This document shows positions 42,458 to 59,530 of a stretch of DNA of 64,000 bases, in pieces (positions within the stretch are counted from its first letter, which is position 1; each line of letters begins with the position of its first letter). Made by a program: the position numbers and the translations under genes. The notes beneath the pieces were generated by a model. It saw only the letters and a list, made by a program, of their open reading frames with translations. It was not told the DNA's origin and searched no databases. The DNA is taken from NCBI GenBank assembly GCA_021818955.1, contig JAKASR010000002.1, forward strand, positions 233,659 to 297,658, given 5' to 3'. The DNA comes from Acidobacteriota bacterium (GTDB lineage Bacteria > Acidobacteriota > Terriglobia > Terriglobales > SCQP01).

Positions 42458-44145
42458 CGGCTAGAGGCGAGGCCTTTCGCCGGCGCTTCGGCTGGTTCCG
42501 TGATATGCAATATCTGGTTGGCGGCGATATTTTTCAGTACCTGCACCGTGCCGCTGGGCCAGCGCAGCGTCAATTCATCCACTTGCGCGTGATCTCCCAG
42601 CCCGAAATGCGGCCGCGGATCGGATTGCGACAGGTAGCCGGATTCCGAGATCGCTTCCACCATCTGGCGCAGGCTGCCGGCAACCGCCTCCAGGCGCGTG
42701 CCGTAACCGTCACGGTTACTGCGCGTGCCTTCAAGCTTGATCGTGAGCCAGTGCGCTCGCGCGCCCGCCGGCGGGGTATTGTGCAGCAAGATGCCCGGCT
42801 CTCCCAGCGTAGTCAGAAATGCATCGACATAGCCGTCGTTGTCGTAATCGCCGAAACAGGCGCCGCGGCATACGCGCCGGCTCGCGAAAAAACTATCGGG
42901 CGCGCTTGGCGCCAGATGAAAGCCGCCCTGGCGGTCGTTGCGCAGCAGCAGGCTCTTCATCGGAATCTGCCAAGCCAGGCCGCCGTCGCCGATAAAGATG
43001 TCTTTCCAGCCATCGTTGTCGTAATCGAGCACGCCGTCGCCCCAGGCGACGTATTGCCCGCAGATGCGACCAATTCCCGATTCGTTCGTGCGATCGATAA
43101 AATACGGGCGCTGCCCGGACCGGGCGTTTTGGTAATAGCGATGAAAACTGGCGTCGGAGACGAACAGGTCGAGCCAGCCTTGGTTGTGCATGTCGGAAAA
43201 AATCGGCCCCATCGCCGTAGTCGCTTCCCCGTTTTGCCCATACGCCACGTTTTGCTCGACGGCCACGTTGCTGAAGGTGCCATTGTGGTTGTTGTGGTAA
43301 AGGAAGCTCGGCATGGTGTCGTTGGCGACGAAAATGTCCGGCCAGCCGTCGTTGTCGTAATCACCCACGGTTACGCCCATGGCCCGTCCCGGAGTGCGCG
43401 CAATGCCCGACTCGCGCGATACGTCGGTGAAGGTGCCGTTGCCGTTGTTGTGCAGCAGGCGGTTGAATTCCGGGTCGTAGTCGAGAGGGCCAGGGTAGTT
43501 GTCGCCGGGATAGTAATGCCGGTAGTTGGGGACGAAGCGCAGGTAATTGCCGATGAATAAATCCAGGCGCCCGTCGCGATCGTAATCGAGGAACGCCGCG
43601 CCGGTGGCATAGTGCGGATTGAATACTCCGGCGTCGCCGGTGACGTCGGTGAAGGTGCCGTCGCCGTTATTGTGGTAAAGCACCGAATGCCGGTAACCGG
43701 TGACAAAGATATCCGGCCAGCCATCGTTATCGAAATCGCCTACGGTGACACCGATACCGAAGCCCACCCCGCCGACGCCGGCCGCGCGCGTGACGTCGGT
43801 AAAAGTGCCATCGCCATTATTGCGATAGAGATGGTTGCTGGCGCTCAGGCCATCGGGAGCGGAATGATTGGTGACGCCTTCGACAAAACGTCCGTTGACC
43901 ACATAAAGGTCGAGCAGGCCGTCGTTGTTGTAATCAAGCCAGGCGCAGCCCGAGCCGGTGCCTTCCAGAATCGAACTGAGGTGCTTCTCTCCAAAGCTAT
44001 GCCGAAAGCGTATGCCCGAGGGCGCCGTGACATCGAGAAATTGCGGCGCGGGCGGCAGATCGGCCGCGCGGGTGGTGCCCCGCAGCGCCCAGGCGGGAAT
44101 TCCCGCCGCGGCGCCGGCCAACAATTGTCGTCGCGTCAGCTTCAT
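42454..44145 (-). CDS. FG-GAP/UnbV (CRTAC1-like) calcium-binding repeat protein, Tat-exported
   Basis: 563 residues. MKLTRRQLLAGAAAGIPAWAL is a twin-arginine signal. Repeats of the form DxDNDGxxDIFV (DYNNDGLLDLYV, DFDNDGWPDIFV, DYDRDGRLDLFI, DYDNDGWPDIFV, DYDNDGWKDIFI, DYDNDGYVDAFL) give a calcium-binding integrin-like propeller. The C-terminal ASPIC/UnbV domain is from about residue 465 (LTIKLEGTRSNRDGYG, SGYLSQSDPRPHFGLGDH, LTLRWPSGTVQ). These proteins are found on bacterial surfaces and in metal-oxidation loci. The start at 44145 follows GAGGTCCCG and overlaps the next gene's end as ATGA. Confidence 0.87.
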   Translation of the reverse strand: MKLTRRQLLAGAAAGIPAWALRGTTRAADLPPAPQFLDVTAPSGIRFRHSFGEKHLSSILEGTGSGCAWLDYNNDGLLDLYVVNGRFVEGVTNHSAPDGLSASNHLYRNNGDGTFTDVTRAAGVGGVGFGIGVTVGDFDNDGWPDIFVTGYRHSVLYHNNGDGTFTDVTGDAGVFNPHYATGAAFLDYDRDGRLDLFIGNYLRFVPNYRHYYPGDNYPGPLDYDPEFNRLLHNNGNGTFTDVSRESGIARTPGRAMGVTVGDYDNDGWPDIFVANDTMPSFLYHNNHNGTFSNVAVEQNVAYGQNGEATTAMGPIFSDMHNQGWLDLFVSDASFHRYYQNARSGQRPYFIDRTNESGIGRICGQYVAWGDGVLDYDNDGWKDIFIGDGGLAWQIPMKSLLLRNDRQGGFHLAPSAPDSFFASRRVCRGACFGDYDNDGYVDAFLTTLGEPGILLHNTPPAGARAHWLTIKLEGTRSNRDGYGTRLEAVAGSLRQMVEAISESGYLSQSDPRPHFGLGDHAQVDELTLRWPSGTVQVLKNIAANQILHITEPAEAPAKGLASSR

Positions 44146-45599
44146 CGGGACCTCACGATTTTTTTCACTGGGGCTACGCCGGGCATTCCGAACGTTATTG
44201 GCGCCTGCCGGCGTTTCAGCGCCAGTGGCCAGCGGTTCGCCGGCGCCAGCGCGGGATTGCCATGGCAGCTTTGGCAGCCCGCGTCTTCGCCCGGGCGCAC
44301 CCAAATCCAACTGCGCTGCGCTTCGACAATTGCGCCGCGCGCGTCGAGCAATTCAAACCGCAATGGCAGGTCGGCGGGCAGGCGGAGATAAAACGAGCCA
44401 TCGGGCTCGATCGGCGCGCTGCCCAGCGTCGCCGCCCGGCCGTTTCGCAGCGCTTGCACCCGCACGCGCGCCAGCCGGGCGCGCGGCCAGCGCCCATTCG
44501 GAGCCATCATCGAACGGTAGGCGTTCAGGCAGATCACGCGTCCGCTGGGCAGGGGATGAAGAATGCTGAAATACCGCAGCGGCATCAGCCGTGGCTCCAG
44601 CGGCGTCGCCTGGCTGCAACTGGCTGCGCTTGTCTGATAGAGCTGCGCCACAATGGCGCGGGCCGCCGCGTTGTAAACGTAAATGCCGCAACCTGGCGCC
44701 GTCTTCGACATGGCATGTGCGGCCAGGGCGCCGCTCAATAGCCATTTCGCGCCATCCAGCAACCGGGCCGAACCGAATTGCGCCCCCGAGGGTGGCAGCA
44801 GTGCCGCTTGCGGCGACTGCGGCCGATACCACGCCAGCGCACCGGTAGCCGTGCCCGGCTGCCGCGCAATGAACAGGATGGTGCCATCGGCCAATTCTCG
44901 CGCCTGCCCCGCGTTCGTGGCGCGCGGATAGCGCCAGCGCAGCAGCCGCAACTCCGAGCCATCCGGACGCATCGTGTAAAGCGCCCGCCGCTGGCTGTCC
45001 GCCGCGCGCGCGAGTGGCGCAGTAGCCGAAACTAAAATCCGGCCATTGTGTAGCACCGCTTCCACCCGGAAATTGCCGGGGCCGAAGGTGATCGGATGCG
45101 CCTGCGATCCATCCGACCGTGCGACGTAGATTTGCGCTCCCAGCGGTCCGATAGAACCGCCGCTGCAGCTATAGAGAATATGGCCGCCGGGCAGCCAAGC
45201 CGGCGCTAGGCAATCGGCCGCGCCGTGCGTTAACTGCCGCTGGCCTCCGCCGGCTGCAGTCATTTGCCAGATTTGCCAGCGCCCGCCGCGCCGTTGCTTG
45301 CCGGCAAACAGCAGTTTTTTACCTGAGTACGAAATTCGCGGATCGGCGGCAGCATAAAAGTCCGGCGTCAGCATTACCGGCTGCCCGCCCCCAGCCGGCA
45401 TGCGCATCAATCGGCTGCCATGCGGAAAGCGCCATACAGCCGAGTTGAGCGTGGCTTGCGGCGCCTCGACGAAGACAAAACCCGGCAGCGCGCACTTAAT
45501 GCTGCGCTGCGAGCCTGCCGCTAAAAACCCAAGATTGGCCAGGGAAAAAACCGCCGCAATGACGAATGAAAATTTCAATCTCCACACACCCAGCCGCAA
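44142..45599 (-). CDS. TolB-like propeller with C-terminal c-heme motif (HzsA-middle-like)
   Basis: 485 residues; first gene of the operon. A signal peptide covers about residues 8-30. The body is a TolB/WD40-like propeller (residues about 60-280: GGGQPVMLTPDF, RQLTHGAADC, ARSDGSQAHPITFG). The C-terminal part (about 370-460), with GSAPIEPDGSFYLRLPADLPLRFELLDARG and then WVRPGEDAGCQSCHGNP, is the HzsA-middle pattern with one CXXCH heme site. The start is a TTG at 45599; an inner GTG at 45587 or TTG at 45578 (just after GGAGA) is possible because no strong Shine-Dalgarno precedes the first codon. Confidence 0.75.
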   Translation of the reverse strand: MRLGVWRLKFSFVIAAVFSLANLGFLAAGSQRSIKCALPGFVFVEAPQATLNSAVWRFPHGSRLMRMPAGGGQPVMLTPDFYAAADPRISYSGKKLLFAGKQRRGGRWQIWQMTAAGGGQRQLTHGAADCLAPAWLPGGHILYSCSGGSIGPLGAQIYVARSDGSQAHPITFGPGNFRVEAVLHNGRILVSATAPLARAADSQRRALYTMRPDGSELRLLRWRYPRATNAGQARELADGTILFIARQPGTATGALAWYRPQSPQAALLPPSGAQFGSARLLDGAKWLLSGALAAHAMSKTAPGCGIYVYNAAARAIVAQLYQTSAASCSQATPLEPRLMPLRYFSILHPLPSGRVICLNAYRSMMAPNGRWPRARLARVRVQALRNGRAATLGSAPIEPDGSFYLRLPADLPLRFELLDARGAIVEAQRSWIWVRPGEDAGCQSCHGNPALAPANRWPLALKRRQAPITFGMPGVAPVKKIVRSR

Positions 45600-46291: not shown

Positions 46292-47203
46292 ATGTTTCCG
46301 CCTTATTCCTGCCGCCCGGTCCGCTTCGAGACGCCACGGCAATTTTTGCTGGCTGGACTCTGGTTCGGCGGCGAGCGTCCCCGCCAAGCATTCATATTTG
46401 TACACGGTTTGGGGGGCTCTGCCTTTTCGCATCAGGACTGGCTGGCGCCGCTGGCCGGCCGCCGCAACGCCGTGCTTTATTTCAACAATCGCGGCCACGA
46501 TACTGTAGCCGGATTGCGGCAGATGAGCCGGACCTCGAAGCCGGGCCATCCCTATGCCTGCGCCGGCGTTGCCCATGAAGTTTTCACCGATTGCGTGGAC
46601 GATTTACAAGGTGCGGTGAATCTTTGCCGCCGCCAGGGAACGCGGCGGATCTATCTCGCCGGCCACTCGACCGGTTGCCAGAAAATCGTCTATTACCTCA
46701 GCCGCGCCCGGACACAGGCGCGCATCGCCGGCGCCGTGCTGCTCTGTCCGATTAGCGATTACGCCGGCGCGCGGCATACGAATGAAGCCCGCCGCCACCG
46801 CGCGGAACGGGTGGCCCGCCGCCTGGCGCGGAACGGGCGCGGGCATGAATTGCTGCCGGTGCGTCTTTGGCCCGGTCCCGGCGCAACGGATTGCCAAGCG
46901 CTCGACGCCCAGCGTTTTCTAAGCCTTTATACACCCGATAGCGCGGAAGAGATTTTTACTTACGCCCAGCCCGGAAAAATTCCACGCGCGCTGCGAAAGA
47001 TCAAAATTCCGTTACAGGTGATTCTAGCCGGCGCGGATGAATACGCCGACCGCCCCGCCGAAAACTTAGCCGCCTGGTTCGCGGCAAATATGCGCTCGTG
47101 CCGTGCCGAGATCCAAATCGTCACTGGCGCTTCGCACAGCTTCCAGGGCCACGAAAGCCAGCTCATGCGCCTTCTCCGCCGCGGGTTGCCGCCGCGCGCT
47201 TGA
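46292..47203 (+). CDS. Alpha/beta hydrolase
   Basis: 303 residues. Oxyanion-loop HGLGGSAFSH (about 38), nucleophile elbow AGHSTG (about 127), acidic residue in LAGADEYADRPAEN (about 250), and catalytic His in TGASHSFQGHE near the end. The overall form resembles the DUF1749-type acyl hydrolases. No signal peptide, so cytoplasmic. AAGGGG lies upstream of the ATG. The substrate is not indicated by the neighbours: repeat elements flank it on both sides. Confidence 0.82.
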   Translation: MFPPYSCRPVRFETPRQFLLAGLWFGGERPRQAFIFVHGLGGSAFSHQDWLAPLAGRRNAVLYFNNRGHDTVAGLRQMSRTSKPGHPYACAGVAHEVFTDCVDDLQGAVNLCRRQGTRRIYLAGHSTGCQKIVYYLSRARTQARIAGAVLLCPISDYAGARHTNEARRHRAERVARRLARNGRGHELLPVRLWPGPGATDCQALDAQRFLSLYTPDSAEEIFTYAQPGKIPRALRKIKIPLQVILAGADEYADRPAENLAAWFAANMRSCRAEIQIVTGASHSFQGHESQLMRLLRRGLPPRA

Positions 47204-47207
47204 GGCG

Positions 47208-47319
47208 CACGGCCGAAACCGGACGCATGGCGAAATTTCTTCGATATTGAGCAGGTTGAAGGCAATTTCTTCGAAATTGCCATTGACGAAAACTACTGTC
47301 CGACCCGGCCGTTAACGCT
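47208..47319 (-). repeat. Dispersed intergenic repeat, copy 4 (internally truncated)
   Basis: About 112 bp. The right side CGAAAACTACTGTCCGAC then CCGGCCGTTAACGCT is conserved, and CGGCCGAAACCGGACGCATG marks the hairpin, but the AAAAGTAAAAGCGGCCG end is missing. Its middle holds a perfect inverted repeat GGCAATTTCTTCGAAATTGCC at 47261-47281 (listed as GGCAATTTC, TTC, GAAATTGCC). The element spans the convergent gap and enters the 3' end of the next gene. Confidence 0.75.
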
Positions 47320-50300
47320 GGGGGGGGTGGCGACGGTGATATTGCCGCGGAGGTGGATGTGGTCGGAGGCGGCGACGGCGACGGCGAAGTCGCGGAACTT
47401 CTGGTAGCGGCTCGGAGGAATCAGCAGCGGCGGCAGGTCGAGCACGCGGTCGTAGCGCACGATGTTGCCAATTTGGCTGTAGTCGGCGGTGAAGACGCCA
47501 TAGCCGCCCTGGAGCTTGCCCGAGGGCGGCAGGGCGGCGAGCCGGAAGCCGGGGGGCAAATCCACTTCGACGCGGGTAATGCCGAACAGCGGCGCGGGCA
47601 GGATAAGCGGATATTGGCGATAAGAGAGCGAAGCGTAACGGCTGAGCAGGTTGACGCGGCTGACCAGGTGGCGGATGGTCCAGCTATTGCCGGCAACGGT
47701 GGCGAAGCCGGAAGCCTGTCCCTGGATGTGGATCAAGAGCGAAAGCGCGGCGTGGTGCAGATTTTCGATATGGCCGCTCAGGGCGATGCCGGTGGGATAG
47801 GTGCCCAACAGCAGCGACTGATAGATCTGAGGCAGGCGGGTGGCGGGCTGGCTTTCGAGCGCCTGGCGAATCTGCTCGGCGGCGAGGCCGCGGAATTCCA
47901 GGGTTAAATTCAGTTGGGCGGAGCCATCCGGCTGAAGCTGGGCGCGGATAGTCTCGACGGTGGCGTCGAGGGTGGAAGAGGAGACGGGGACGGTTGCGAA
48001 AGGATGCGGGTGGGTATCGCCGGCGAGCAAGGCCAGGCCGCCGCGCACGGCAGGTGCGATGTAGCCGGGCTGGGCAAACTGCTGGTTGAGGTCGTACCAG
48101 TTGCGATTGCCTTTCGGTCCGACGCGCACCAACGGATAGGTGAACTGGAAGATATTGGGAATCTGCAAGCTGGAATTGTCGGTGACGGCGCGGGCGAGGG
48201 CGAGCCGCCAGGGGACGCGGGCGGCGCTGAGCAGGCCGAGAAAGACAGCGAGGCGGCTGCCGCTGCGGTCATGAAAATCCTGAGCGCCAGGCGAGAAATC
48301 TTCCCCCGGCCGCTGTTCCTGCTGGCGAATGTGCGCGGCCACCCAGGCAAACAGCGTATCGGCCCGGGCGCGGTTGCCGGAAACGCCGGCGGTCAAGCGC
48401 AGCGCCTGGGCGCGCATGGAAGGGGTGAAGCGGCGCACGGCATAGAGCCGGTCGGACCAGTAGGCGGCAATCTGACGCCAAGCCAGCGGACTGCTGACCC
48501 AGACTTTAGGCACAAGCCGCTGGTAGGGCGGCATGTTGGGCTCGGAAATCACCATACGGGTTTTCTGAACCAGCCATTCGCGCGAGGTCCAATCGTTGCC
48601 GCGCTGGATTTTAGGCTTGCCGGGAAAACGCGCCTGCTGGATGGTCAGGGGAAAATGACGAGGGCTGAGCACGACGTAGTCGGAAAAGTTATACGGCTCG
48701 CGATTGGAGTTGAAGATGAAATACATGTCGTTATCGAGCGCGCCGCCGACCACACTCGAAGGGGGAAAATGCTCGACATATTCGGTTTCGATGTAATCGC
48801 CCGGCTCCAAGCCGGGCATGGAGATGCTGGTGCGGCCATCCATGCGCTCGGGCAGGATGATGCTGCCGTTGGGCTTAAGAGTGCGAATGGTGATCAGGTC
48901 GCTGCCGGGAGGGATTTGCACGGTGCCGTGCATGGCGATACCGGTTTTATCGAGGACGCGGAAGATCTGGTGGATATAGGCATCGCGACTGTGGTCGGGA
49001 TTGATGCGGTCCACCATTTGATCGAAGACGAGAATGGCGGAGGCATTGGGATACTGCACGGCGCTGGGAGCATGGGCGAGAATCTGGCGGGCGGAGTGAT
49101 ACCACGGCAACCAGAATTTGGAGCCGGCGAGGAAGTCGGCGTCGCGGCGCAGGCCATTGCGGTTGAAGTCGTGGGCCTGGAGCCAGGCGATTTCGGCCCG
49201 GCGTCCGCGGGCCAAGCCGACCGCGCCGGCGGCGAGGGCGGCGAGTTTCCAATCGTCGGGAAATTCGCGCACGTCGGTTTTGGCGGCGGCGAGGGCGGCG
49301 GCGTTCTCGCCGGCCTGGAGCAAGGCATTGAGGCGGTCGCGGCGCAGGCGCGCCGAGCTGGGATCGCGCCGGATGGCGGCAGTCAGCAGGCGGACGGCGA
49401 TTTGCGGACGTCCGTGGGTAAGCCAGTACATGCCGAGGTAGGGTGCGGCGCGGGGGCGGAGGGCCATGCGCGCCAGCATGGAGCGGGCCAGGCGGGCGTC
49501 GTTCAGTTGGGCAAAGCCGGCGGCATTGCCGATGGCGGCCCAATCGCTGGGCGATTCGGCCAAGGCCTGGCGCAGGGCGCGCAGGGCTTCCGGAGTCCAG
49601 CCCTGATGGCGGAAAAAGCGGAAAGCTTCCCAATCGCAGACGGCGAGGCCGCGGCCCCAGCAGCGCTGGAAAGCGGCAGCGGCGGCATCGGTTTTGCCCT
49701 GGGATTCGGCCACTTCGGCCTGGCGCAGCCAAGCGGGCACGGCCGAGGGATCGGCGGCCAAGGCGCGGCGGGCGGCGGCGGTGGTTTGGGCGGCGGAATA
49801 ACCCGGACCGGCGTCGGGCAAAGCCTGATCGGCCTGGGCGAGCGCCAGCCAGATGGGGGTGGCCTGGGGCGCCAGGCGAGAGGCCTGGAGCAGCAGCGGG
49901 CGGGCGGCGACGGGGTTGCCATCCTCCATCCGCCAGGCACCATCAAGCCAGAGTTTCACCGGATCGGAGCCAGGCACATGGCTTGCCCAGGTAGCAATCG
50001 TCGGTGGCGGGGGCAGCAGACGCGGGGGTGCGCTCAAGCGCGCCCCGGCGGGCAAGCGTTCGGCGCTGGCGAGCGGGGCGCCATTTTCGGGGCGCAGCAT
50101 GAGATTGAACACGCGCTCGCCATCGCCGGCCAGCATGACCACGACGCGATTCCAGCCGGCCTGAAGGCGCAGCCGCGCCACGGCGGTGGAATTCGAGTAG
50201 CGGGCGCGGCGATCATTGGCGACGACGGGCGCGCCATTGATCCAGATTTTGACGGAGCAGGGCGAATAGACGCGCAGGCCGGCAACGAGCGGGCGCGGCA

Positions 50301-51192
50301 CGCGCAGGAAAGAGACGGCGTAGAAGGCGCCGCGGCCTCCCCAATCGGGTGGAAACAGCACGCCGCCGTGGCGGGCGTCGTAGCTCTGGCCGGGGCGCGT
50401 CCGGTTCCCGTCGCGATAAGGTCCGCGGAGTTGGGAGACCAGCGGCGAGGCGGTATCGAAGGCCAGATTGGGCCAGAAGCCGAAGGGGCCGTAGAGCCGC
50501 CAGTGCTGGGGGCGTCCGGCGGTTGCGAGGGCGGCGGCCGCCAACTCGGCGGCGGGAGTGCGGGCGGTGCCGCGCGGCAAGGGCAACTGCAATTCCAAGC
50601 GGCCCAGCATGTAGGCGGTCACCGGGTTGGCGAAGCGGCACTTGAAGAGGCTGCGCAGCTCGGGAGCGGAAGTGGCAAGCAGCGTGCCCTGTCCGCCCAG
50701 ATGCGCGCTCAAATAACGCGCCGCCCATTCGGCTGCAGGATCGTTAGGAGCGAGGCGCACGAGCGCCAGCGCGGCGCGCGAGGCCTGGAATTGGCGGCCT
50801 TCACTCTCGGCCTGGGTAAATTCCGTCCAAAGCGCGGCGCGATCATCGGGACTGGCGACCAGCGCGCGGCGCGCGTCGCGCATCGCTCGTTTTTTTTCGG
50901 CGGGCGAGCCGTAAAACCATTCCACCCACGCGCGCTCGCCCAAGCCGCGGGCCGAGCGCAGCGAGCGCGGCAGCCGATCGAGGAAGCTGGTGGCAGGCAC
51001 GGCGGCGGATGCGGGCGCAGGTGCCGCGGCGAGCGCGGGAGCGGGTGCAGGGATGAGACCGACAGCTAAGGCAAATGCCAGAAGGCCGCCAAACCGAAAG
51101 TTATCCGCTATCAGCCGCCAGCTGCCTGCTGAAGGAAGAAGAAATTTAAATCTGCGGATGGCGGCGGAAGAGTGGGGTTGAAAAAATCGCAT
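47293..51192 (-). CDS. Giant secreted TPR protein with DUF3857 and degenerate transglutaminase-like domain
   Basis: 1299 residues: signal peptide/anchor (about 33-57), TPR-rich helical half (about 70-720), DUF3857 (about 730-880: DAYIHQIFRVLDKTG, MPGLEPGDYIETEY) and a transglutaminase-like region from about 930. Where the active paralogue has FGDCKDKA, this one has FHDRSGSRLA, so the catalytic Cys is absent; the His strand is QFTYPLVRV. It is therefore probably a pseudoenzyme, maybe the structural partner of the upstream gene, 6 bp away. The last eight residues (SVNGRVGQ) come from repeat copy 4. Confidence 0.85.
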   Translation of the reverse strand: MRFFQPHSSAAIRRFKFLLPSAGSWRLIADNFRFGGLLAFALAVGLIPAPAPALAAAPAPASAAVPATSFLDRLPRSLRSARGLGERAWVEWFYGSPAEKKRAMRDARRALVASPDDRAALWTEFTQAESEGRQFQASRAALALVRLAPNDPAAEWAARYLSAHLGGQGTLLATSAPELRSLFKCRFANPVTAYMLGRLELQLPLPRGTARTPAAELAAAALATAGRPQHWRLYGPFGFWPNLAFDTASPLVSQLRGPYRDGNRTRPGQSYDARHGGVLFPPDWGGRGAFYAVSFLRVPRPLVAGLRVYSPCSVKIWINGAPVVANDRRARYSNSTAVARLRLQAGWNRVVVMLAGDGERVFNLMLRPENGAPLASAERLPAGARLSAPPRLLPPPPTIATWASHVPGSDPVKLWLDGAWRMEDGNPVAARPLLLQASRLAPQATPIWLALAQADQALPDAGPGYSAAQTTAAARRALAADPSAVPAWLRQAEVAESQGKTDAAAAAFQRCWGRGLAVCDWEAFRFFRHQGWTPEALRALRQALAESPSDWAAIGNAAGFAQLNDARLARSMLARMALRPRAAPYLGMYWLTHGRPQIAVRLLTAAIRRDPSSARLRRDRLNALLQAGENAAALAAAKTDVREFPDDWKLAALAAGAVGLARGRRAEIAWLQAHDFNRNGLRRDADFLAGSKFWLPWYHSARQILAHAPSAVQYPNASAILVFDQMVDRINPDHSRDAYIHQIFRVLDKTGIAMHGTVQIPPGSDLITIRTLKPNGSIILPERMDGRTSISMPGLEPGDYIETEYVEHFPPSSVVGGALDNDMYFIFNSNREPYNFSDYVVLSPRHFPLTIQQARFPGKPKIQRGNDWTSREWLVQKTRMVISEPNMPPYQRLVPKVWVSSPLAWRQIAAYWSDRLYAVRRFTPSMRAQALRLTAGVSGNRARADTLFAWVAAHIRQQEQRPGEDFSPGAQDFHDRSGSRLAVFLGLLSAARVPWRLALARAVTDNSSLQIPNIFQFTYPLVRVGPKGNRNWYDLNQQFAQPGYIAPAVRGGLALLAGDTHPHPFATVPVSSSTLDATVETIRAQLQPDGSAQLNLTLEFRGLAAEQIRQALESQPATRLPQIYQSLLLGTYPTGIALSGHIENLHHAALSLLIHIQGQASGFATVAGNSWTIRHLVSRVNLLSRYASLSYRQYPLILPAPLFGITRVEVDLPPGFRLAALPPSGKLQGGYGVFTADYSQIGNIVRYDRVLDLPPLLIPPSRYQKFRDFAVAVAASDHIHLRGNITVATPPSVNGRVGQ

Positions 51193-51198
51193 GCCGGG

Positions 51199-54100
51199 TT
51201 AACGGCTCCTCTGCCGATCGAATACTTGGGGCAAATTCTCTAAAAATGCCATAGCGGCGGGGCCAGGCCGCAGCGAGGCGGACTGGGGATGGGCGTAGAT
51301 GCCGGCATCCAGTTTGGCATCCACCTCGACCCAGAAGCGGCGGAAGGTGGCGTATTCGGCCACGGGGATAACGGACTTGAGGGTTTCCAGGCGCATATTC
51401 CATTGCAGCCGGCCGTTGGTCAACTGCGTGGTGTAGTCAAAATTGGCAAAGGGAGTATGCAGATGCAGCGCCGCGGGGGGAGTAAGGGTATAGCCGGGCG
51501 GGAGCTGCAGATCCACCGATTCGACAATCAACTGCGGCGAGCCGACATGCACCGGGGTGTGGCGGGTAGCGAGCGGGGCCATGCGCGGCACCCAAATCAG
51601 CGGCTCAAACTGGCGGGGGAGGCGGAGTCCGCCATTGGGCTGAGGAGCGGCAAAGCGCGGCGCGCGAGCATGAAAGACAATGGTCAGCGGACGGTCGTAA
51701 TGATTGGGGTTGAGGGCGCGGGCGCGGGTGACGGTCAGCCCGGGCAAATCCTGGCGCAGCATCGCCTGCATCACACCCGCCTGGCGTCCGACGATCTGCA
51801 TGGCATGGCGGTAATAGGGCGCGCTCTGCCCGACCACGGTGACTTGCGCGCGGAACTGCAGACGGCCCTTGGAATTCACGCTACCGGTGATGGTGCGGAC
51901 CATGGAATTCATTGCCGCCGGCAAGACCGGCGTAATAACCGGTTGCAGCGGAATGGCCCGAGCGGCGGGCGAGGATTGGGGATCGAGGCCATCGGCGCGC
52001 AGATCGCCGCCAACGGGAATGCGGAAGACCAGCGCATGCTGATCGAGTTCGGGCAATTCCCGCGCGCCGTTGTACTCGGCGGTGCCATCCAGATACCAGC
52101 CCAACTCGGGAACATAGACGATGGCGTGGTCGAAATCGCCAATGGCGGGGATGCGGGTGGAGACGTGGCCCAGATCGCGGGTGCGCACGAGCACGATGTC
52201 GGCGGCAATGCCGGCGCGCGCCAGCATGGCAATCAGCAATGAAGCTTTGTCTTTGCAGTCGCCAAAGCGGCGGCGGAAGACTTCGCTGACGGGATAGGGG
52301 CGGTAGCCGTGAATGCCGAATTCCAAGGCGACATAGTGGGTGTTGCGAATGACGTAGCTGTAGATCGCCTTGACCTTGGCCTGATCGTTGGGCAAGCCGC
52401 GCACCAGCCGGTCAGTGGCGCGCTGAAGATCGCCATCCATGACAAAAGTGTCGCGGATCAGGCCCTGATACCAGTGGGCAAAGGCGGTCCAATTACCGAA
52501 GGCGGAGACGATGACATAGGGAATCTGCTCGATCGAGGGCGGGCCGTTGGGTTCGCTGGTGTAGCCCGGCTGGTTGCGCAACTGCCAGCGATAGATTTTC
52601 ATGCCGTCGCGGGTTTCCACATTCGCCTGGCCGGTGAAACGCACCGCATCGGAATAGAGCGGCAAAGAGGCCGGAGACAATACCACTAATTGCTGGCGCA
52701 ACGTAGGGGCGGAAGTCTGGAACGGCTGCAGCTCGCCAAAATAGTTGCCGTAGAGCGATTCCAGGGTAGTGGGCATCATGCGATAGGCGATCTGGACATA
52801 ATCGCCGGGGCGCAGCGAGGGCATGACCACATAACGGTTGCGGACGTTGTAATAGGTTTCGTAGCCGACCGACTGGCTGACGAGGGAGTCGCCGGGAGCG
52901 GGGGCATCGGTAGTGGAACCGTCGGGGTGGTAAACGCGCGCGGCGAGATAATGCACTTCCTGGCGGCGGGGATCGTAAGTAACCGAATAGCTGGCCAGGG
53001 CTTCGGCGCCAACGCGATTGTTGACGCGAAAGATCTGCTGCACGTAGCGACCGACGTTGCCGGAGGGAAAGATGCGGATGACGGTGGTATTGGCGACGAG
53101 GCCGATGGGGCCAACCAACAGCGCGGGATGGGGGTGGCGACGCAAAGCGGCGATGGCGGCGGCAGCGGCGATGCGATAGGGGCGATAGAAGCTGGCTTCA
53201 CGATGGCCGCCCTGCAACAGATGCAGGCGGCTGGCCAGGGTGGAATTTTGGGGATCGAGCCGAAGCGCGGTCTGCCAGGCGCGGATGGCGGCGGTGGGCT
53301 GGCCGGCGGCGTATTCCAACTCGCCCTGGCGGCGCCAGAGCTTGTGTCCGTTGGGCTGGAGGCGCAGCGCGGCGGCGAGGGCTCGGCGGGCGGCGGCAAA
53401 GTTGCCTTGGCCGCCGAGAATTTCCGCCAGCATCCATTGCACCCGGCTGGTGGGGTCTTCAGCCAGCACGGTTTGAAGAGTGCGCGCGGCGGCGCGGGAA
53501 TGGCCGTTATGTAACTGTTCGTAGGCGAGCTGATGGAAGAGGGCGGGATTTTTACGATTATTGGGGAAGGCGGCCTCGGTCCAGGCCTGGGCATCGGCAT
53601 GCAGGCCGAGATGCAGCAAGGTTTGGGCGACGGGAACGGCGAGGCCATTGATAGCGGCGGCGCCCACCGCGCGCAAACGCCGTTCCAGGGCTAGCGCTTG
53701 CGGGGCGAGGCCCATGCCGGCATAGGTTTCGAGCAAGCCTAGAGCGGCATGGGGAGCGGCGAGCCATTGTTGCGGTGAGGCGGAAGCGAGTGAAGCGGCG
53801 CCGCCCCAGCGGGCTTTTAAGGCGGCGATGAAGTCGCGGCGGGCGGGCCAGAACTCGCTGCGGCTGAGTTCAATTTCTCCCCGGCGGGCGAGGGCTTCCG
53901 CATAGCCGGGGCCGGGGCCGTTTTCTAAAACGCGGCGCAAGGTGCGGTAGGCGCGTCCCTGGTTGGTATCCATCTCGGCAAAATCCAACTCGATGCGGCG
54001 CCAGCGGAGGGCGGCGGGAGCGCTCGCGGTGGGAATGGCACCGTTGGGAGCGGCCAAGGCCTCAGCCTGCTCCAAGGCGTAGTTCAGTGTATTACTGCCG

Positions 54101-55152
54101 CGATTGAAGTTGGCTTTTTGATAGAGGATCCAGGCGTAATGCTGCCAGCCGGCGGCGGTGGTGGCGGCGGCCCGCGCTATGGCGGTCAGGTCGGCGACGG
54201 CAAATTGAGGCGCCGGCTGCGCCGCCCAATCCGGGGCGGGATGCGGCCGAGCGCTGGAATGTAACGCCAGCGGGCGGCCATTGGGGGTGGTGGCGCGCAA
54301 GGCGAAAATCCAAACCTCGCTTTCGAGCTCGCCATCTTTTACCAAGACCTGGTTCCAGCCGGCGGCCAGGCGCGCTGGAATGACGTGCATATCGAAGCCA
54401 TCACCGGGGTGAATCATGGCTTCGGAAAACAACAGCTCGCCGTTGACCCACAGGCGAGTCGAGCCGCTATCGGATAAACGCAGCGCGACCTGGCGCGCGC
54501 GTGGGCTGTAGATCCAAGTGGCCAGATAAGCGGAGACCGCCTCGCGAGGGCTGAAATAGCGCCCCAGGCGGATGCGTCCGAGAGCCGCCGGCCATTCCAG
54601 GCGGCGCCAGCCGACGCTGCCGGATTTGCCGGGATAATGCGCCGCCAGATTGATGCCGCGCTCGGGGCCGACGGCTTGAGCGATGGCGTCGGGAGTGGAG
54701 TTGTCGAAGGGGCCGACCATCTGCCAATGGCGGAGCAGGCCGAGCTTGCGCCAGAGTGCCGCGGCGGCGGCGGGTTCGCCCAGGCGCTGCTGCTCGCGCG
54801 CGATCTGGTTATCGAGTTCCGCCTCGATCAGCGGCGGCTGTCCGGTGGCGGCCAGTTGCCGCCATGCCGCCAGCGCCCGGCGCGGGTCGGGCAGCCAGGG
54901 ACGCAGCTTTTCCATGCGATTCAAGGCCGCGGCGCGCGCCGGCAGGCTTCTCGCCGATTGAAAACGGCGCAACGCCGCCTCAAAGCGCACGAGGGGCGGA
55001 GCGGGGTCCGAAGCCGGCGCCGGCGGGACGGCAGGCCCGCGCGAGGCGGCTCGAACGCCTGGCGGCTGAAAAGCGGCGAATAAAAAAAAGAAGAGAAACG
55101 CTGGGACAGCGGTAAAAACTTTGCGCATTCGGGCCAAGGCCTTGTTTTTCAT
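51199..55152 (-). CDS. Giant secreted TPR protein with DUF3857 and transglutaminase domain
   Basis: 1317 residues. Signal peptide (KVFTAVPAFLFFFLFAAF), TPR half (about 80-700, for example ALRRVLENGPGPGYAEALARRGEIELSRSEFWPARRDF), DUF3857 (about 710-850: VGRYVQQIFRVNNRVGAEALA, MPSLRPGDYVQIAYRM), and a transglutaminase core: FGDCKDKASLLIAML (catalytic Cys, about residue 966), FDHAIVYV (His) and YLDGTAE (Asp). Such proteins are widespread in acidobacteria and bacteroidetes, with unknown substrates; a peptide- or protein-processing role in the periplasm is inferred. The ATG at 55152 starts the signal peptide. Confidence 0.87.
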   Translation of the reverse strand: MKNKALARMRKVFTAVPAFLFFFLFAAFQPPGVRAASRGPAVPPAPASDPAPPLVRFEAALRRFQSARSLPARAAALNRMEKLRPWLPDPRRALAAWRQLAATGQPPLIEAELDNQIAREQQRLGEPAAAAALWRKLGLLRHWQMVGPFDNSTPDAIAQAVGPERGINLAAHYPGKSGSVGWRRLEWPAALGRIRLGRYFSPREAVSAYLATWIYSPRARQVALRLSDSGSTRLWVNGELLFSEAMIHPGDGFDMHVIPARLAAGWNQVLVKDGELESEVWIFALRATTPNGRPLALHSSARPHPAPDWAAQPAPQFAVADLTAIARAAATTAAGWQHYAWILYQKANFNRGSNTLNYALEQAEALAAPNGAIPTASAPAALRWRRIELDFAEMDTNQGRAYRTLRRVLENGPGPGYAEALARRGEIELSRSEFWPARRDFIAALKARWGGAASLASASPQQWLAAPHAALGLLETYAGMGLAPQALALERRLRAVGAAAINGLAVPVAQTLLHLGLHADAQAWTEAAFPNNRKNPALFHQLAYEQLHNGHSRAAARTLQTVLAEDPTSRVQWMLAEILGGQGNFAAARRALAAALRLQPNGHKLWRRQGELEYAAGQPTAAIRAWQTALRLDPQNSTLASRLHLLQGGHREASFYRPYRIAAAAAIAALRRHPHPALLVGPIGLVANTTVIRIFPSGNVGRYVQQIFRVNNRVGAEALASYSVTYDPRRQEVHYLAARVYHPDGSTTDAPAPGDSLVSQSVGYETYYNVRNRYVVMPSLRPGDYVQIAYRMMPTTLESLYGNYFGELQPFQTSAPTLRQQLVVLSPASLPLYSDAVRFTGQANVETRDGMKIYRWQLRNQPGYTSEPNGPPSIEQIPYVIVSAFGNWTAFAHWYQGLIRDTFVMDGDLQRATDRLVRGLPNDQAKVKAIYSYVIRNTHYVALEFGIHGYRPYPVSEVFRRRFGDCKDKASLLIAMLARAGIAADIVLVRTRDLGHVSTRIPAIGDFDHAIVYVPELGWYLDGTAEYNGARELPELDQHALVFRIPVGGDLRADGLDPQSSPAARAIPLQPVITPVLPAAMNSMVRTITGSVNSKGRLQFRAQVTVVGQSAPYYRHAMQIVGRQAGVMQAMLRQDLPGLTVTRARALNPNHYDRPLTIVFHARAPRFAAPQPNGGLRLPRQFEPLIWVPRMAPLATRHTPVHVGSPQLIVESVDLQLPPGYTLTPPAALHLHTPFANFDYTTQLTNGRLQWNMRLETLKSVIPVAEYATFRRFWVEVDAKLDAGIYAHPQSASLRPGPAAMAFLENLPQVFDRQRSR

Positions 55153-55341: not shown

Positions 55342-55851
55342 ATGGCGAAGATCAGCGCAGGGCTGCTGATGTACCGCCGGCGAGGCGGGGCGGCGGAAGT
55401 CCTGTTAATTCACCTGGGCGGGCCGTTTTGGGCGCGGAAGGACGAGGGCGCCTGGTTTATTCCCAAAGGCGAAATCGAGTCCGGGGAAGACCTGCTCGCC
55501 GGAGCGCGACGCGAATTCGAAGAAGAAACGGGCTTTGCCACCCCGGCAGTGGATGGCGGCTCGCCCTCCCCGGGGGGAGAAGCCGGCTCATCTTCTATAT
55601 ATATGCCGCTGGGCGAGACGCGGCGGTGCGGCGGCAAGACGATGGTGGTATTTGCCTTTGCCGGCGATTGCGACCCCGCCCAGGCGCACAGCAATACATT
55701 TGAAATGGAATGGCCGCCGCGTTCCGGACGGCGACAGGAATTTCCGGAAGCCGACCGCGCGGGGTGGTATGCGCCGGCCGAGGCGGAGAGGAAAATCCAT
55801 CCCGGCGAGCGCATTTTTCTGGAGCGGCTGGCGGTCGCTATTGCACGGTGA
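55342..55851 (+). CDS. NUDIX hydrolase (COG4119-like)
   Basis: 169 residues. The NUDIX box [22 protein letters not shown] (G-x5-E-x7-RE-x2-EE-x-G) is intact, and the opening AKISAGLLMYRRRGGAAEVLLIHLGGPFWARKDEGAWFIPKGE is that of COG4119 NTP pyrophosphohydrolases. It hydrolyses nucleoside diphosphates linked to another moiety, but the substrate is not readable. The start ATG has no Shine-Dalgarno; TATACG lies a few bases before it. The stop overlaps the convergent gene end by 14 bp. Confidence 0.9.
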   Translation: MAKISAGLLMYRRRGGAAEVLLIHLGGPFWARKDEGAWFIPKGEIESGEDLLAGARREFEEETGFATPAVDGGSPSPGGEAGSSSIYMPLGETRRCGGKTMVVFAFAGDCDPAQAHSNTFEMEWPPRSGRRQEFPEADRAGWYAPAEAERKIHPGERIFLERLAVAIAR

Positions 55852-58800
55852 GTGATAGCGAAGTCGAGCGCGAAATCGAGCTATTGGCAGCGGTGACGGT
55901 TAAGGTGTAGGTGCCCGCGGGGGTACCTGCCGGCGCCGACGGAGTGGACGCGGTTGTGCCGCCGCCGCAACCCGCAAGCGAGAGCGCCAGCAAAGCGCCG
56001 GCGCAAAGTGCCAGCCAACGGCGCTTGCGGTCCGCCAGCCAAGCCAAGCCGAGCGCGCAAGCCAGGGCGCCCAGAGCGTAGAACATCCAGGGCAGACGCG
56101 GGGGCACGAGCGGGAAGGCCGGCGGGAGCAGGCTACGGGCGGTGGTGGATACGCTGACGGCGATGCTGGTGGCGGAATTGGAGAGCGTTACCGAGGCCGG
56201 ACTGGCGGTGCAAGTGGCTTGGGTGGGAGCTCCGGTGCAGCTCACCGTAACCGTGCCGCTCAAGCCGCCCTCGGGGGTGAGAGCGAGGTTATATGTGGCC
56301 GTACTGCCGGCGGTAACGGTGGCCGAACTGGAAGCGCCGCTGGCGGGACCGAATTGCAGATCCTGGCCGGTACCGCTCAAGCTGACGGATTGCGGGCTGT
56401 TGGCGGCGTTATCGGTGATGGTTAAGGTTCCGCTGCGGGTACCGCTGGCCGAGGGCGTGAACGTGACCGAGATGGAACAGTTGGCGCCGGCAGCCAGGCT
56501 GGAGCCGCAGGTGCTGGTTTGGGCAAAATCTCCGCTAATGCCAATGCCGCCGATGGTCAGCGTGGCCGAGCCGGGGTTGGACAAAGTGATCGTTTGCGCG
56601 GCGCTCGTGGTGGAAACTATCTGGCCGGAAAAACTCAGGCTGGCGGGAGACACACCGGCCAAGGGCGCGGCGAGGGTGGCGGTGCCGCTCAAGCTCACCG
56701 ATTGCGGACTGCCGGAAGCGTTATCGGTAATTGTCAACGCGCCGGTGCGCGCGCCCGTAGCGGTTGGAGTGAAAGTTACCGAGATGGCGCAATTGGCGCC
56801 AGCGGCCACACTGGAGTTGCAGGTATTGGTTTCGGCGAAATCACCACTAGCGGCAATCGAGGTGATCGACAAGGAAGCGGTGCCGGTATTGGTCAAGGTC
56901 ACGGTTTGAGCGGCACTGGTAATGCCGGTGGGCTGGGAGGCGAAGGTCAAAGCGGCGGGCGAGAGCGCGACCAGGGGCGCGCTCGCGGGCAGGGGCGCGA
57001 TGGACCAAACGCCGCGGCCATGAGTGGCGGCCAGCAATTGATAGGATCCGGTGTTGTCGAAGGCTAACTGGAGGATGGCGGTATTGGGCAGGCCGGAGCC
57101 AAGCTGTTTCCAGGTTTCGGCCGCGCCGGCGGCGCCGCCATCGGTGGCGACAAAGACGCCGACATCGGTGGCGACATAGATGTTCTCCGCCGCCTGCGGA
57201 TCGATGGCCACCCAGTTGGCGGGCGCATCAGGCAAGTTGCCGGTAATGTCGACCCAGTTGGCTCCGCCATCGGTGGTCATCAACACATGGCTGCCGCCGA
57301 AGCCCTGCAGGGCGAGGTAGGCGATCTGCGGATTGGTGGGATGAACGGAGATCGAGCTGATCGGGCCAAAAGCGAGCGAGAGGCCGGAATTCACAAAACT
57401 ATATGTAGTCCAAGTCGGCGAGCTGCTCAGGGCATTGGCGGTGTACATCACGGAAATAGAACTATCACTGGTAAAGCCGGCGGCAGCATAAATGTAATTG
57501 GCGTTGCCGGGCGCGCTGGCCACGGCGGTGATGCAATCGTAACTATACTGCGCGCAACCGGCATTCATTACCGGGCTGATGGCGCTCCAGCCCGTATTGA
57601 TGGAGGCGGGCATGGCTGGGCCGCGATAGACGGCATCGCCGCCGAACAGCATAGTGGAGTTATCCGCAGGCTCAAGCTGATACGGGGCAATGAACTGGGA
57701 ATTTGGGGGCAAATTTAAAATGGGGTTATACCCGCCGGAGCAACCGGACGAGTAATACACATCGGCATGGGTGTAAGAGAAAAAGCAGTCGCCGGCCGTG
57801 TCGAAGGCGCTGTTGCCTCCATCCCCCCCGAAAAATTCCTTCCAGCCCACCGAACCGGTGGTGTATTCGGTGCCATTGTCCTGGGTGCCACCCATGATTT
57901 CGCCGGCTATCCGGGGATTGCCGGCGATGCTATAGAACTGTAGCGCACTGAGCGAGGCATTGAGATCGCTCCAAACCGCGCCGGAGTCGGTCGAGGACCA
58001 GACGCCGCCATCGTTGCCGACGAACCAGGTGGTGTTACCGCCCACGGTTTCGGTGGCGAACGCATGCTGATCGGGATGCACGATGCCGTTGGTATAGGAG
58101 TTGGTGAGATTGCTCCAGGTGGTGCTGGTGCTATTCACGCTGGAAGCCTGCCAGGCATCAATGCCGCCGACTAATAAAGAAGAAGCATTGGGCGGTGCGG
58201 CGATCCAAATGTCGTAATAACCCTGATGATTGGAGCCAAATAAGCCGGCGGGCGCGGCCAGCGGAACCCAGGTCGTTCCGCCATCACTGGACATCGAAAG
58301 GCCGGTATCGCAACCGGTGGTCTGTCCGCTACTACAGGCCACGCCCACGGACAAATTTCCGGAACTGTCGCTGGTGAGGGCATAAAGCACGCCGGCACGA
58401 TCGGCCAAGGCCACCCGCCCGACCGAACCGGTGCCGCTGGGCATGGGGCCGTTAATTTGGGTCCAGGAATTGCCCTGGTCGGTGGATTTATACATCGTGC
58501 CGGAGATGACGGTGTAATACGTTTTGCTGCCGGGGTCATAGACCAGGCTGTCGCAATTATCTCCGCTCCCACCAAACGCTTGAGTCCAGGTTGCGCCGCC
58601 GTCGAGGGAGCGATAGACGCCGCCGAAACGATAAGTTCCATTGGTATTAAAGAGAACCGAGGACGACGTGGTGTGAAAGTTAGTTGCATTGCTGGCGGCC
58701 GCAAGCACGATCGAGGGATTGACGGGATCGACCAGGATGGCACTCCAACCCATGCCGATAAACTGCAGCGGGCAGGTGACGCTTTGGCAGGTATCGTCCT

Positions 58801-59428
58801 GGGTAATCAACGACCAGGTCTGGCCGCCATCGGTGGAACGCAGGATGCCCATGCCGTAATAGGAGTCGCCCGAATCGTTGGGCTCACCGGTGCCCACCAG
58901 GATGGTGCTGGGCGAGGTCCCGGGAATTACTGCGATGGCGCCCACCGATAAGGACTGGGTGGGATCGCTGATCGGGGTAAAAGTGGGGTTGGCACTGAGG
59001 GCGTTAGTGGATTTCCAGACGCCTCCGTAAGCGGTGCCGACATAGACGGTGTTGCCGGTCGCATCGTTGGGATCGAGGGCAATGGCCGTGACCCGGCCAC
59101 CGACATAGCCGTAATAGCTATCCAGTTCGGGTGCGGGGCCGAGAAAGCTCCAACTGCCGCTGGTGACGACGGGAGCGGCGCCCAGGCGCGATGCGCCGTC
59201 GCGAGGCCGCGCGATGGGGTAGGGCGCAAAGGGAATTTGGCCGCGCTGGCGCAAGGCCCGATAAAGATGAATGGCGGGCGGCAGATTATCAAAGGACTGG
59301 CGGGCGCGCAGGAAAAATTCCTGGCGCTCGCGCCGGTGATCAGCGGGGCGTGTAGCGCGGCCGGTTGGCGCTTGTGACCATACTAAGCCCGCCGACAGGA
59401 TTAATTCCCAGAAGAAAATGCGTCGCAT
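55838..59428 (-). CDS. Secreted BNR-propeller protein with choice-of-anchor (Ig-like) repeats
   Basis: 1196 residues. Signal peptide MRRIFFWELILSAGLVW; BNR/Asp-box propeller (about 70-840: SLDGGATW, STDQGNSW, SSDGGTTW, TTDGGANW); two choice-of-anchor D Ig modules (about 845-1040: LTFASQPTG, TLTNTGTASLSITSI, LSFSGQIVS); then a Pro/Thr-rich linker, a membrane segment (PWMFYALGALACALGLAWLA) and a cell-surface-like tail. It is likely exposed at the cell surface. Starts at 59503 and 59428 are both possible; the latter starts the signal peptide directly. A role in adhesion or polymer binding is inferred. Confidence 0.82.
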   Translation of the reverse strand: MRRIFFWELILSAGLVWSQAPTGRATRPADHRRERQEFFLRARQSFDNLPPAIHLYRALRQRGQIPFAPYPIARPRDGASRLGAAPVVTSGSWSFLGPAPELDSYYGYVGGRVTAIALDPNDATGNTVYVGTAYGGVWKSTNALSANPTFTPISDPTQSLSVGAIAVIPGTSPSTILVGTGEPNDSGDSYYGMGILRSTDGGQTWSLITQDDTCQSVTCPLQFIGMGWSAILVDPVNPSIVLAAASNATNFHTTSSSVLFNTNGTYRFGGVYRSLDGGATWTQAFGGSGDNCDSLVYDPGSKTYYTVISGTMYKSTDQGNSWTQINGPMPSGTGSVGRVALADRAGVLYALTSDSSGNLSVGVACSSGQTTGCDTGLSMSSDGGTTWVPLAAPAGLFGSNHQGYYDIWIAAPPNASSLLVGGIDAWQASSVNSTSTTWSNLTNSYTNGIVHPDQHAFATETVGGNTTWFVGNDGGVWSSTDSGAVWSDLNASLSALQFYSIAGNPRIAGEIMGGTQDNGTEYTTGSVGWKEFFGGDGGNSAFDTAGDCFFSYTHADVYYSSGCSGGYNPILNLPPNSQFIAPYQLEPADNSTMLFGGDAVYRGPAMPASINTGWSAISPVMNAGCAQYSYDCITAVASAPGNANYIYAAAGFTSDSSISVMYTANALSSSPTWTTYSFVNSGLSLAFGPISSISVHPTNPQIAYLALQGFGGSHVLMTTDGGANWVDITGNLPDAPANWVAIDPQAAENIYVATDVGVFVATDGGAAGAAETWKQLGSGLPNTAILQLAFDNTGSYQLLAATHGRGVWSIAPLPASAPLVALSPAALTFASQPTGITSAAQTVTLTNTGTASLSITSIAASGDFAETNTCNSSVAAGANCAISVTFTPTATGARTGALTITDNASGSPQSVSLSGTATLAAPLAGVSPASLSFSGQIVSTTSAAQTITLSNPGSATLTIGGIGISGDFAQTSTCGSSLAAGANCSISVTFTPSASGTRSGTLTITDNAANSPQSVSLSGTGQDLQFGPASGASSSATVTAGSTATYNLALTPEGGLSGTVTVSCTGAPTQATCTASPASVTLSNSATSIAVSVSTTARSLLPPAFPLVPPRLPWMFYALGALACALGLAWLADRKRRWLALCAGALLALSLAGCGGGTTASTPSAPAGTPAGTYTLTVTAANSSISRSTSLSLTVQ

Positions 59429-59530
59429 TCCGAGTTTCACGAGACGATAACCTCTGATTGAGAGCTGGCGAGATATTATCCACTTACGGTCGATTCCAAA
59501 CAAGCCTTTTTTTGTCGAACTGTCGAACTA

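Follow-up and report, generated by a model that had tools for sequence, protein, structure and literature searches.

Genes A and B, two adjacent giant genes on the 64,000-nucleotide stretch of an Acidobacteriota genome analysed here as a whole (the window), probably encode a Cys-dependent enzyme and its dedicated, catalytically dead partner subunit, a proposal made without activity, complex or substrate data. The partner subunit is the simplest reading of B; its retention, its fixed order after A and the repetition of the same arrangement are not adequately explained by simple decay. The enzyme/pseudoenzyme pair put forward by the first-pass annotation is borne out by the sequences (Table 1), and the pairing is backed by the joint occurrence and fixed order of the two genes, by their overlap and by the repeated independent origin of the arrangement; as far as alignments can tell, live/dead pairing was confirmed to be much more general than originally noticed.

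Table 1. Features of the A-B locus, in positions of the window.
Feature	Position	Strand	Remark
Gene A, 1317-aa exported protein	51199..55152	-	1317 aa counted from ATG
A DUF3857 domain, residues 697-862	52567..53064	-	Pfam
A Transglut_core domain, residues 912-1019	52096..52419	-	Pfam
A conserved EFGIH loop, residues 944-948, N-terminal to Cys966	52309..52323	-	
A Cys966, predicted triad nucleophile	52255..52257	-	
A His1009, predicted triad member	52126..52128	-	
A Asp1022, predicted triad member	52087..52089	-	
Intergenic gap of 6 bp, stop of A to start of B	51193..51198	.	
Gene B, 1299-aa pseudoenzyme, paralogous to A over its full length but lacking the catalytic Cys and His	47293..51192	-	
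B DUF3857-like domain, residues 715-885	48538..49050	-	
B pseudo-transglutaminase domain (residues 895-1040), devoid of Cys	48073..48510	-	
B Gly978-Ser979-Arg980 replacing G-D-C-K-D-K	48253..48261	-	
B Tyr1019 at the catalytic-His position	48136..48138	-	
B Asp1034 at the Asp position	48091..48093	-	Retained in about half of orthologues

The two genes and the altered catalytic site

The genes flanking A-B (46292-47203 and 55342-55851) both lie on the opposite, plus strand, so that A-B looks like a two-gene unit. Also on the minus strand, the window encodes a protein with a match to the middle domain of hydrazine synthase alpha (PF18582, 60 bits) and a weak match to PD40 repeats (44142-45599), and a protein of 1221 aa in which sortilin/BNR-like repeats are combined with Ig domains of the HYDIN/ASPM type (55838-59503). 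Most of B is covered by an antisense open frame of 1051 aa (47914-51069, plus strand), probably just the mirror of a GC-rich coding sequence.

The two proteins share 23% identity (BLASTP) and are homologous over nearly their full length (about 1128 columns, probability 100 in the profile comparison). In A, an N-terminal beta-sandwich is followed by TPRs, DUF3857, a transglutaminase-like core and a C-terminal DUF3858-like domain, an architecture that B shares; PF12969 (DUF3857) and PF01841 (Transglut_core) scored 97.6 and 41.7 bits, both above the gathering score, and the TPRs also exceeded the Pfam cut-off. The motifs previously quoted for an intact Cys-His-Asp triad (FGDCKDKA, FDHAIVYV and YLDGTAE) were all recovered, C966 being the sole Cys among the 1317 residues, and the triad proved invariant in 105/105 distinct A orthologues from three phyla (115 in the alignment before duplicate removal), too consistently for chance. 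The catalytic domain is the best conserved part of A, at 45-51% to distant orthologues; that A is active is inferred from its invariant triad only. For B, the coordinates given earlier for a downstream protein without Cys and His matched ours, and FHDRSGSRLA and QFTYPLVRV were found in it. The accompanying claim that both proteins keep a signal, TPRs and DUF3857 stood for A, while for B the DUF3857 domain was clear from profile alignment and predicted structure and is merely borderline by Pfam (PF12969 matched partially at 24.5 bits vs. a cut-off of 24.6), and the TPR matches remained under the Pfam cut-offs. The N-termini of both proteins are signal-like as judged by eye, and their export rests on this inspection, without a signal-peptide predictor.

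No Transglut_core match was returned for B by the Pfam search. When the two proteins were aligned jointly with MAFFT, the Cys fell in an uninformative gap, and the site was read from a profile alignment and the register of secondary structure. In the former, the Cys of A is opposite a three-residue gap in B (GD-CKD-K vs. G-S-R), and in the AlphaFold models the helix that starts at C966 in A starts at R980 in B and is three residues shorter, a register taken without superposed coordinates. Because Cys is absent from B beyond residue 519, another Cys from its own catalytic half cannot fill the site, and the observation that would have refuted the pair, a substitute Cys in the active site of B, was not made. 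Cys is absent from every readable B orthologue (78 distinct rows), and the loss of Cys and His, being conserved across 78 distinct orthologues in three phyla, is not a matter of chance. B therefore lacks the triad and meets the criterion of a pseudoenzyme (homologous fold, catalytic residues lost, loss conserved), its lack of activity being inferred.

At the altered site G978 is present in 77/78 and R980 in 67/78 distinct B orthologues. Such conservation where the former catalytic helix begins is what would be expected had B acquired a new chemistry or ligand-binding function based on this G-N/S-R motif, but the remaining pseudo-catalytic domain is poorly conserved (16-24%), unlike an active site, and unrelated residues occupy the position in other dead lineages, making this a very improbable account.

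Of the structure predictions called for by the first-pass annotation, of the pair and of the complex, those of the single chains gave confident models for residues 101-1299 of B (pLDDT 92.6, pTM 0.91) and 118-1317 of A (pLDDT 89.4, pTM 0.78), whose catalytic halves both matched PDB 3KD4 (Z 30.7 for A and 18.1 for B). The beta-sandwich fold could not be identified from the structure matches of VIA-align, which lists mostly TPR matches. Among the lowest-confidence stretches of A, modelled alone, is the nearly invariant E944-H948 loop (pLDDT under 50), and in the profile alignment the stretch adjoining this loop is shortened in B.

Conservation of the pair across genomes

Orthologous pairs were taken from 36 loci within the phylum and 80 loci of named genomes (mainly Acidobacteriota and Myxococcota, with one Planctomycetota), the latter survey being seeded on the A alignment and not on B, which offers no sufficiently conserved stretch; loci common to both sets were dropped from the final counts. 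Many of the surveyed genomes are metagenome assemblies, and some loci are affected by contig ends or frameshifts. The pair is conserved across Acidobacteriota, Myxococcota and the one Planctomycetota genome, so the paired loss for which a survey had been proposed was met in three phyla. Wherever the genes are adjacent the order is A, then B, with the start codon of B at the position of a 4-nt overlap in 31/33 and 28/48 loci of the two sets; most orthologous loci thus have a 4-nt stop/start overlap where the source genome has its 6-bp gap. The giant pair is missing from most Acidobacteriota: of 396 genomes of the phylum that were sampled, 31 contain a B scoring over 500 bits, with A adjacent wherever the contigs were intact.

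No B adjoined A in 23/80 loci, some of them at contig ends. When 20 genomes of Myxococcota and Planctomycetota, picked mostly because B had not been seen adjoining A, were searched whole, a match to the B profile was found elsewhere in all of them, in several cases tens of kb from A on the same contig, and Cys was absent in 14/14 of the B copies read. In Myxococcaceae the two genes are unlinked; loss of B in this family was considered and rejected, since B was found elsewhere in the genome, and tight co-translation of A and B is consequently not universal. Co-occurrence of the live and the dead paralogue, a prozyme-type criterion, was met in the genomes checked. In five Myxococcaceae loci with split B (L197, L198, L199, L201 and L208) a Ser/Thr-kinase-like ORF precedes B on the same strand at a distance of 52-92 bp, one member of this cluster reading LGHYMLLEKLGAGGMGEV. 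Apart from A and B themselves, no conserved neighbour recurred across lineages, the neighbour clusters consisting of small or spurious ORFs.

In the tree, A and B form two clades with 99% support for the split and similar internal branching, and their duplication seems, as far as the sequences allow, to be older than the divergence of these phyla, provided that the pair did not pass from one to another by transfer. A mirror-tree correlation (rho 0.44) was discarded as evidence of coupling, since shared ancestry alone yields such a value.

These distributions bear on two further readings of B. That it is a decaying duplicate without function would agree with the lost catalytic residues and the weakly conserved pseudo-catalytic domain, but a long intact ORF has been kept in three phyla, invariant positions are present and B occurs in the checked genomes that have A, so that decay is strongly disfavoured and scarcely credible. 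Another possibility is that B acts alongside A as a non-catalytic binding protein (a scaffold or substrate receptor) without forming a stable complex, its fold being kept for a ligand. The DUF3857 domain is conserved about equally in A and B, and the split, non-adjacent genes of Myxococcaceae are compatible with such a role; the gene overlap, the matched clades and the single live copy per cluster described below favour stoichiometric coupling instead, and we consider the binding protein unlikely, without dismissing it.

One live copy in tandem DUF3857 clusters

A second DUF3857 tandem in the source genome likewise consists of one live and one dead copy. Tandem DUF3857 loci were drawn by domain position, blind to the state of the site, and copies were classified by alignment, five non-family or unreadable ORFs being excluded by hand. 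Exactly one copy with Cys and His, accompanied by one to three dead copies, was found in 53/54 loci, and none of the 54 had two live copies; the exception (L239, G071:C3:87500-94410) comprises three dead copies at the end of a contig. When labels were shuffled (5000 shuffles), the number of loci with exactly one live copy averaged 26 and never exceeded 40. The value of 53/54 is not a p-value, since the loci are not phylogenetically independent. Four of them (L182-L185) had already been seen before the draw, and a few loci of the second draw (e.g., those of G000, G178, G232 and G304 and their relatives) come from families encountered earlier. L244 and L282 lie at contig ends.

The residue at the Cys site of the dead copies is highly variable, with S, G, P, A, R, N, E and W among those that occur; in a single dead copy (L219) the Cys was kept and the His lost, and seven dead copies retained the His. 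In L242, L247, L248 and L249, dead copies with Cys replaced by Asn and with His and Asp kept have a live copy adjacent on the opposite strand. L290 (G171:C46:112000-121000) is a lone dead DUF3857 gene, with a live/dead pair elsewhere in its genome.

Loci with a single recognised DUF3857 copy served as control and had the triad in 38/40 cases. These apparent singletons came from two draws, the first of which favoured high scorers and was biased to live copies, and L216 was counted among them because its neighbouring ORF remained unclassified. The proteobacterial plasmid copies are single and live. Since intact-triad singletons are common, proteins of this fold do occur without a dead partner, and the fold as such does not require one. 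This weighs against B acting as an inhibitor-like partner, or as a zymogen brake on A that is later released, a role that could be imagined for an exported enzyme in need of control, given that a dead copy can fill a substrate or dimer site; we hold it improbable. Of the two possibilities raised by the first-pass annotation, a heterodimer or an inhibitor-like partner, a heteromer, or an activating role of B, fits somewhat better than an inhibitor, in the absence of complex or activity data.

A single origin of all dead copies was tested and rejected (p-AU 1e-54, or 0.012 without the young pair L284), the latter value calling for caution because the group was defined after earlier trees had been viewed. 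Parsimony required five changes for the dead copies (bootstrap 4-5), and dead clades tend to pair with the live clade from the same loci. In the Bacteroidota, P. distasonis carries a live 652-aa gene followed by a 527-aa gene that matches 3KD4, and Persicobacter provides two further live/dead cases. The live-plus-dead arrangement has apparently evolved about five separate times in several bacterial phyla, if these phylogenies are correct, which suggests that the live copy needs the dead one as its partner.

A proposed heteromer and its relation to known systems

In the mechanism we propose, A would be a secreted or periplasmic enzyme of the transglutaminase-like (papain-like) superfamily, made together with B from one two-gene unit, and its likeliest chemistry would be extracytoplasmic hydrolysis of peptides or amides, or transamidation, the activity itself being inferred. 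A and B are inferred to form a complex in which B, enzyme-like in fold, would supply a binding or allosteric half. B might order the E944-H948 loop beside Cys966 of A: the loop is near-invariant in A, is modelled with low confidence and adjoins a stretch shortened in B, so a partner could order it, although this remains a hint that rests on the low pLDDT of A modelled alone. Alternatively, the TPR, beta-sandwich and DUF3857 domains of B might serve to dock the substrate. Extending the proposal beyond this locus, we incline, with less assurance, to the view that the products of clustered DUF3857 transglutaminase-like genes form heteromeric enzymes, each with a single catalytic subunit and at least one dead subunit, and that this organisation would have arisen on about five occasions in phyla as different as Acidobacteriota, Myxococcota and Bacteroidota, the sole solved structure found for the family being that of a non-catalytic subunit labelled a protease.

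That structure, 3KD4 (BDI_1141 of Parabacteroides distasonis, a DUF3857/DUF3858 "putative protease"), is the top structural match of the C-terminal halves of A and B and has the same domain order. As read from the alignment, it appears to be dead itself (Cys to Pro), and its counterpart adjoins a triad-bearing DUF3857 gene in the P. distasonis record. It differs from A and B in being about 527 aa long, the half with the TPRs and the beta-sandwich being absent, and belongs to a dead lineage independent of that of B. Its dead state was not found stated in the literature searched, where 3KD4 occurs only as a fold match; DUF3857 was mentioned in a single paper, only in passing, and PF12969, DUF3858, BDI_1141 and "transglutaminase pseudoenzyme" were not found. 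The present results offer a testable model for this widespread, uncharacterised family and caution against calling all of its members proteases or transglutaminases, since 64/117 tandem copies lack the catalytic Cys-His pair.

LapG and other BTLCPs are exported papain-like cysteine peptidases, a likeness to A, from which they differ in domain architecture, and to our knowledge they have no dead tandem paralogue. Well-studied pairs of an enzyme and a dead paralogue come mostly from single eukaryotic lineages, whereas one bacterial family seems here to have reached the live/dead design repeatedly, and the near rule of one live copy per cluster offers a natural replicate set on why dead subunits evolve. 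The BTLCPs, or bacterial transglutaminase-like cysteine proteases, are placed in the superfamily in PMC4866520. Within the same superfamily, EPB42, FBXO21 and human menin are transglutaminase-like pseudoenzymes that, like B, have lost their catalytic residues (PMC10318531), but they are described as single proteins rather than as members of an operon with a live paralogue. In the trypanosomatid AdoMetDC/prozyme (PMC5201418) and deoxyhypusine synthase (PMC3663545) pairs, a dead paralogue born by duplication activates the live enzyme; these pairs likewise join an active enzyme to a dead paralogue, and differ from A-B in their unrelated folds, their eukaryotic hosts and in having a proven activation, which for A-B is no more than an inference.
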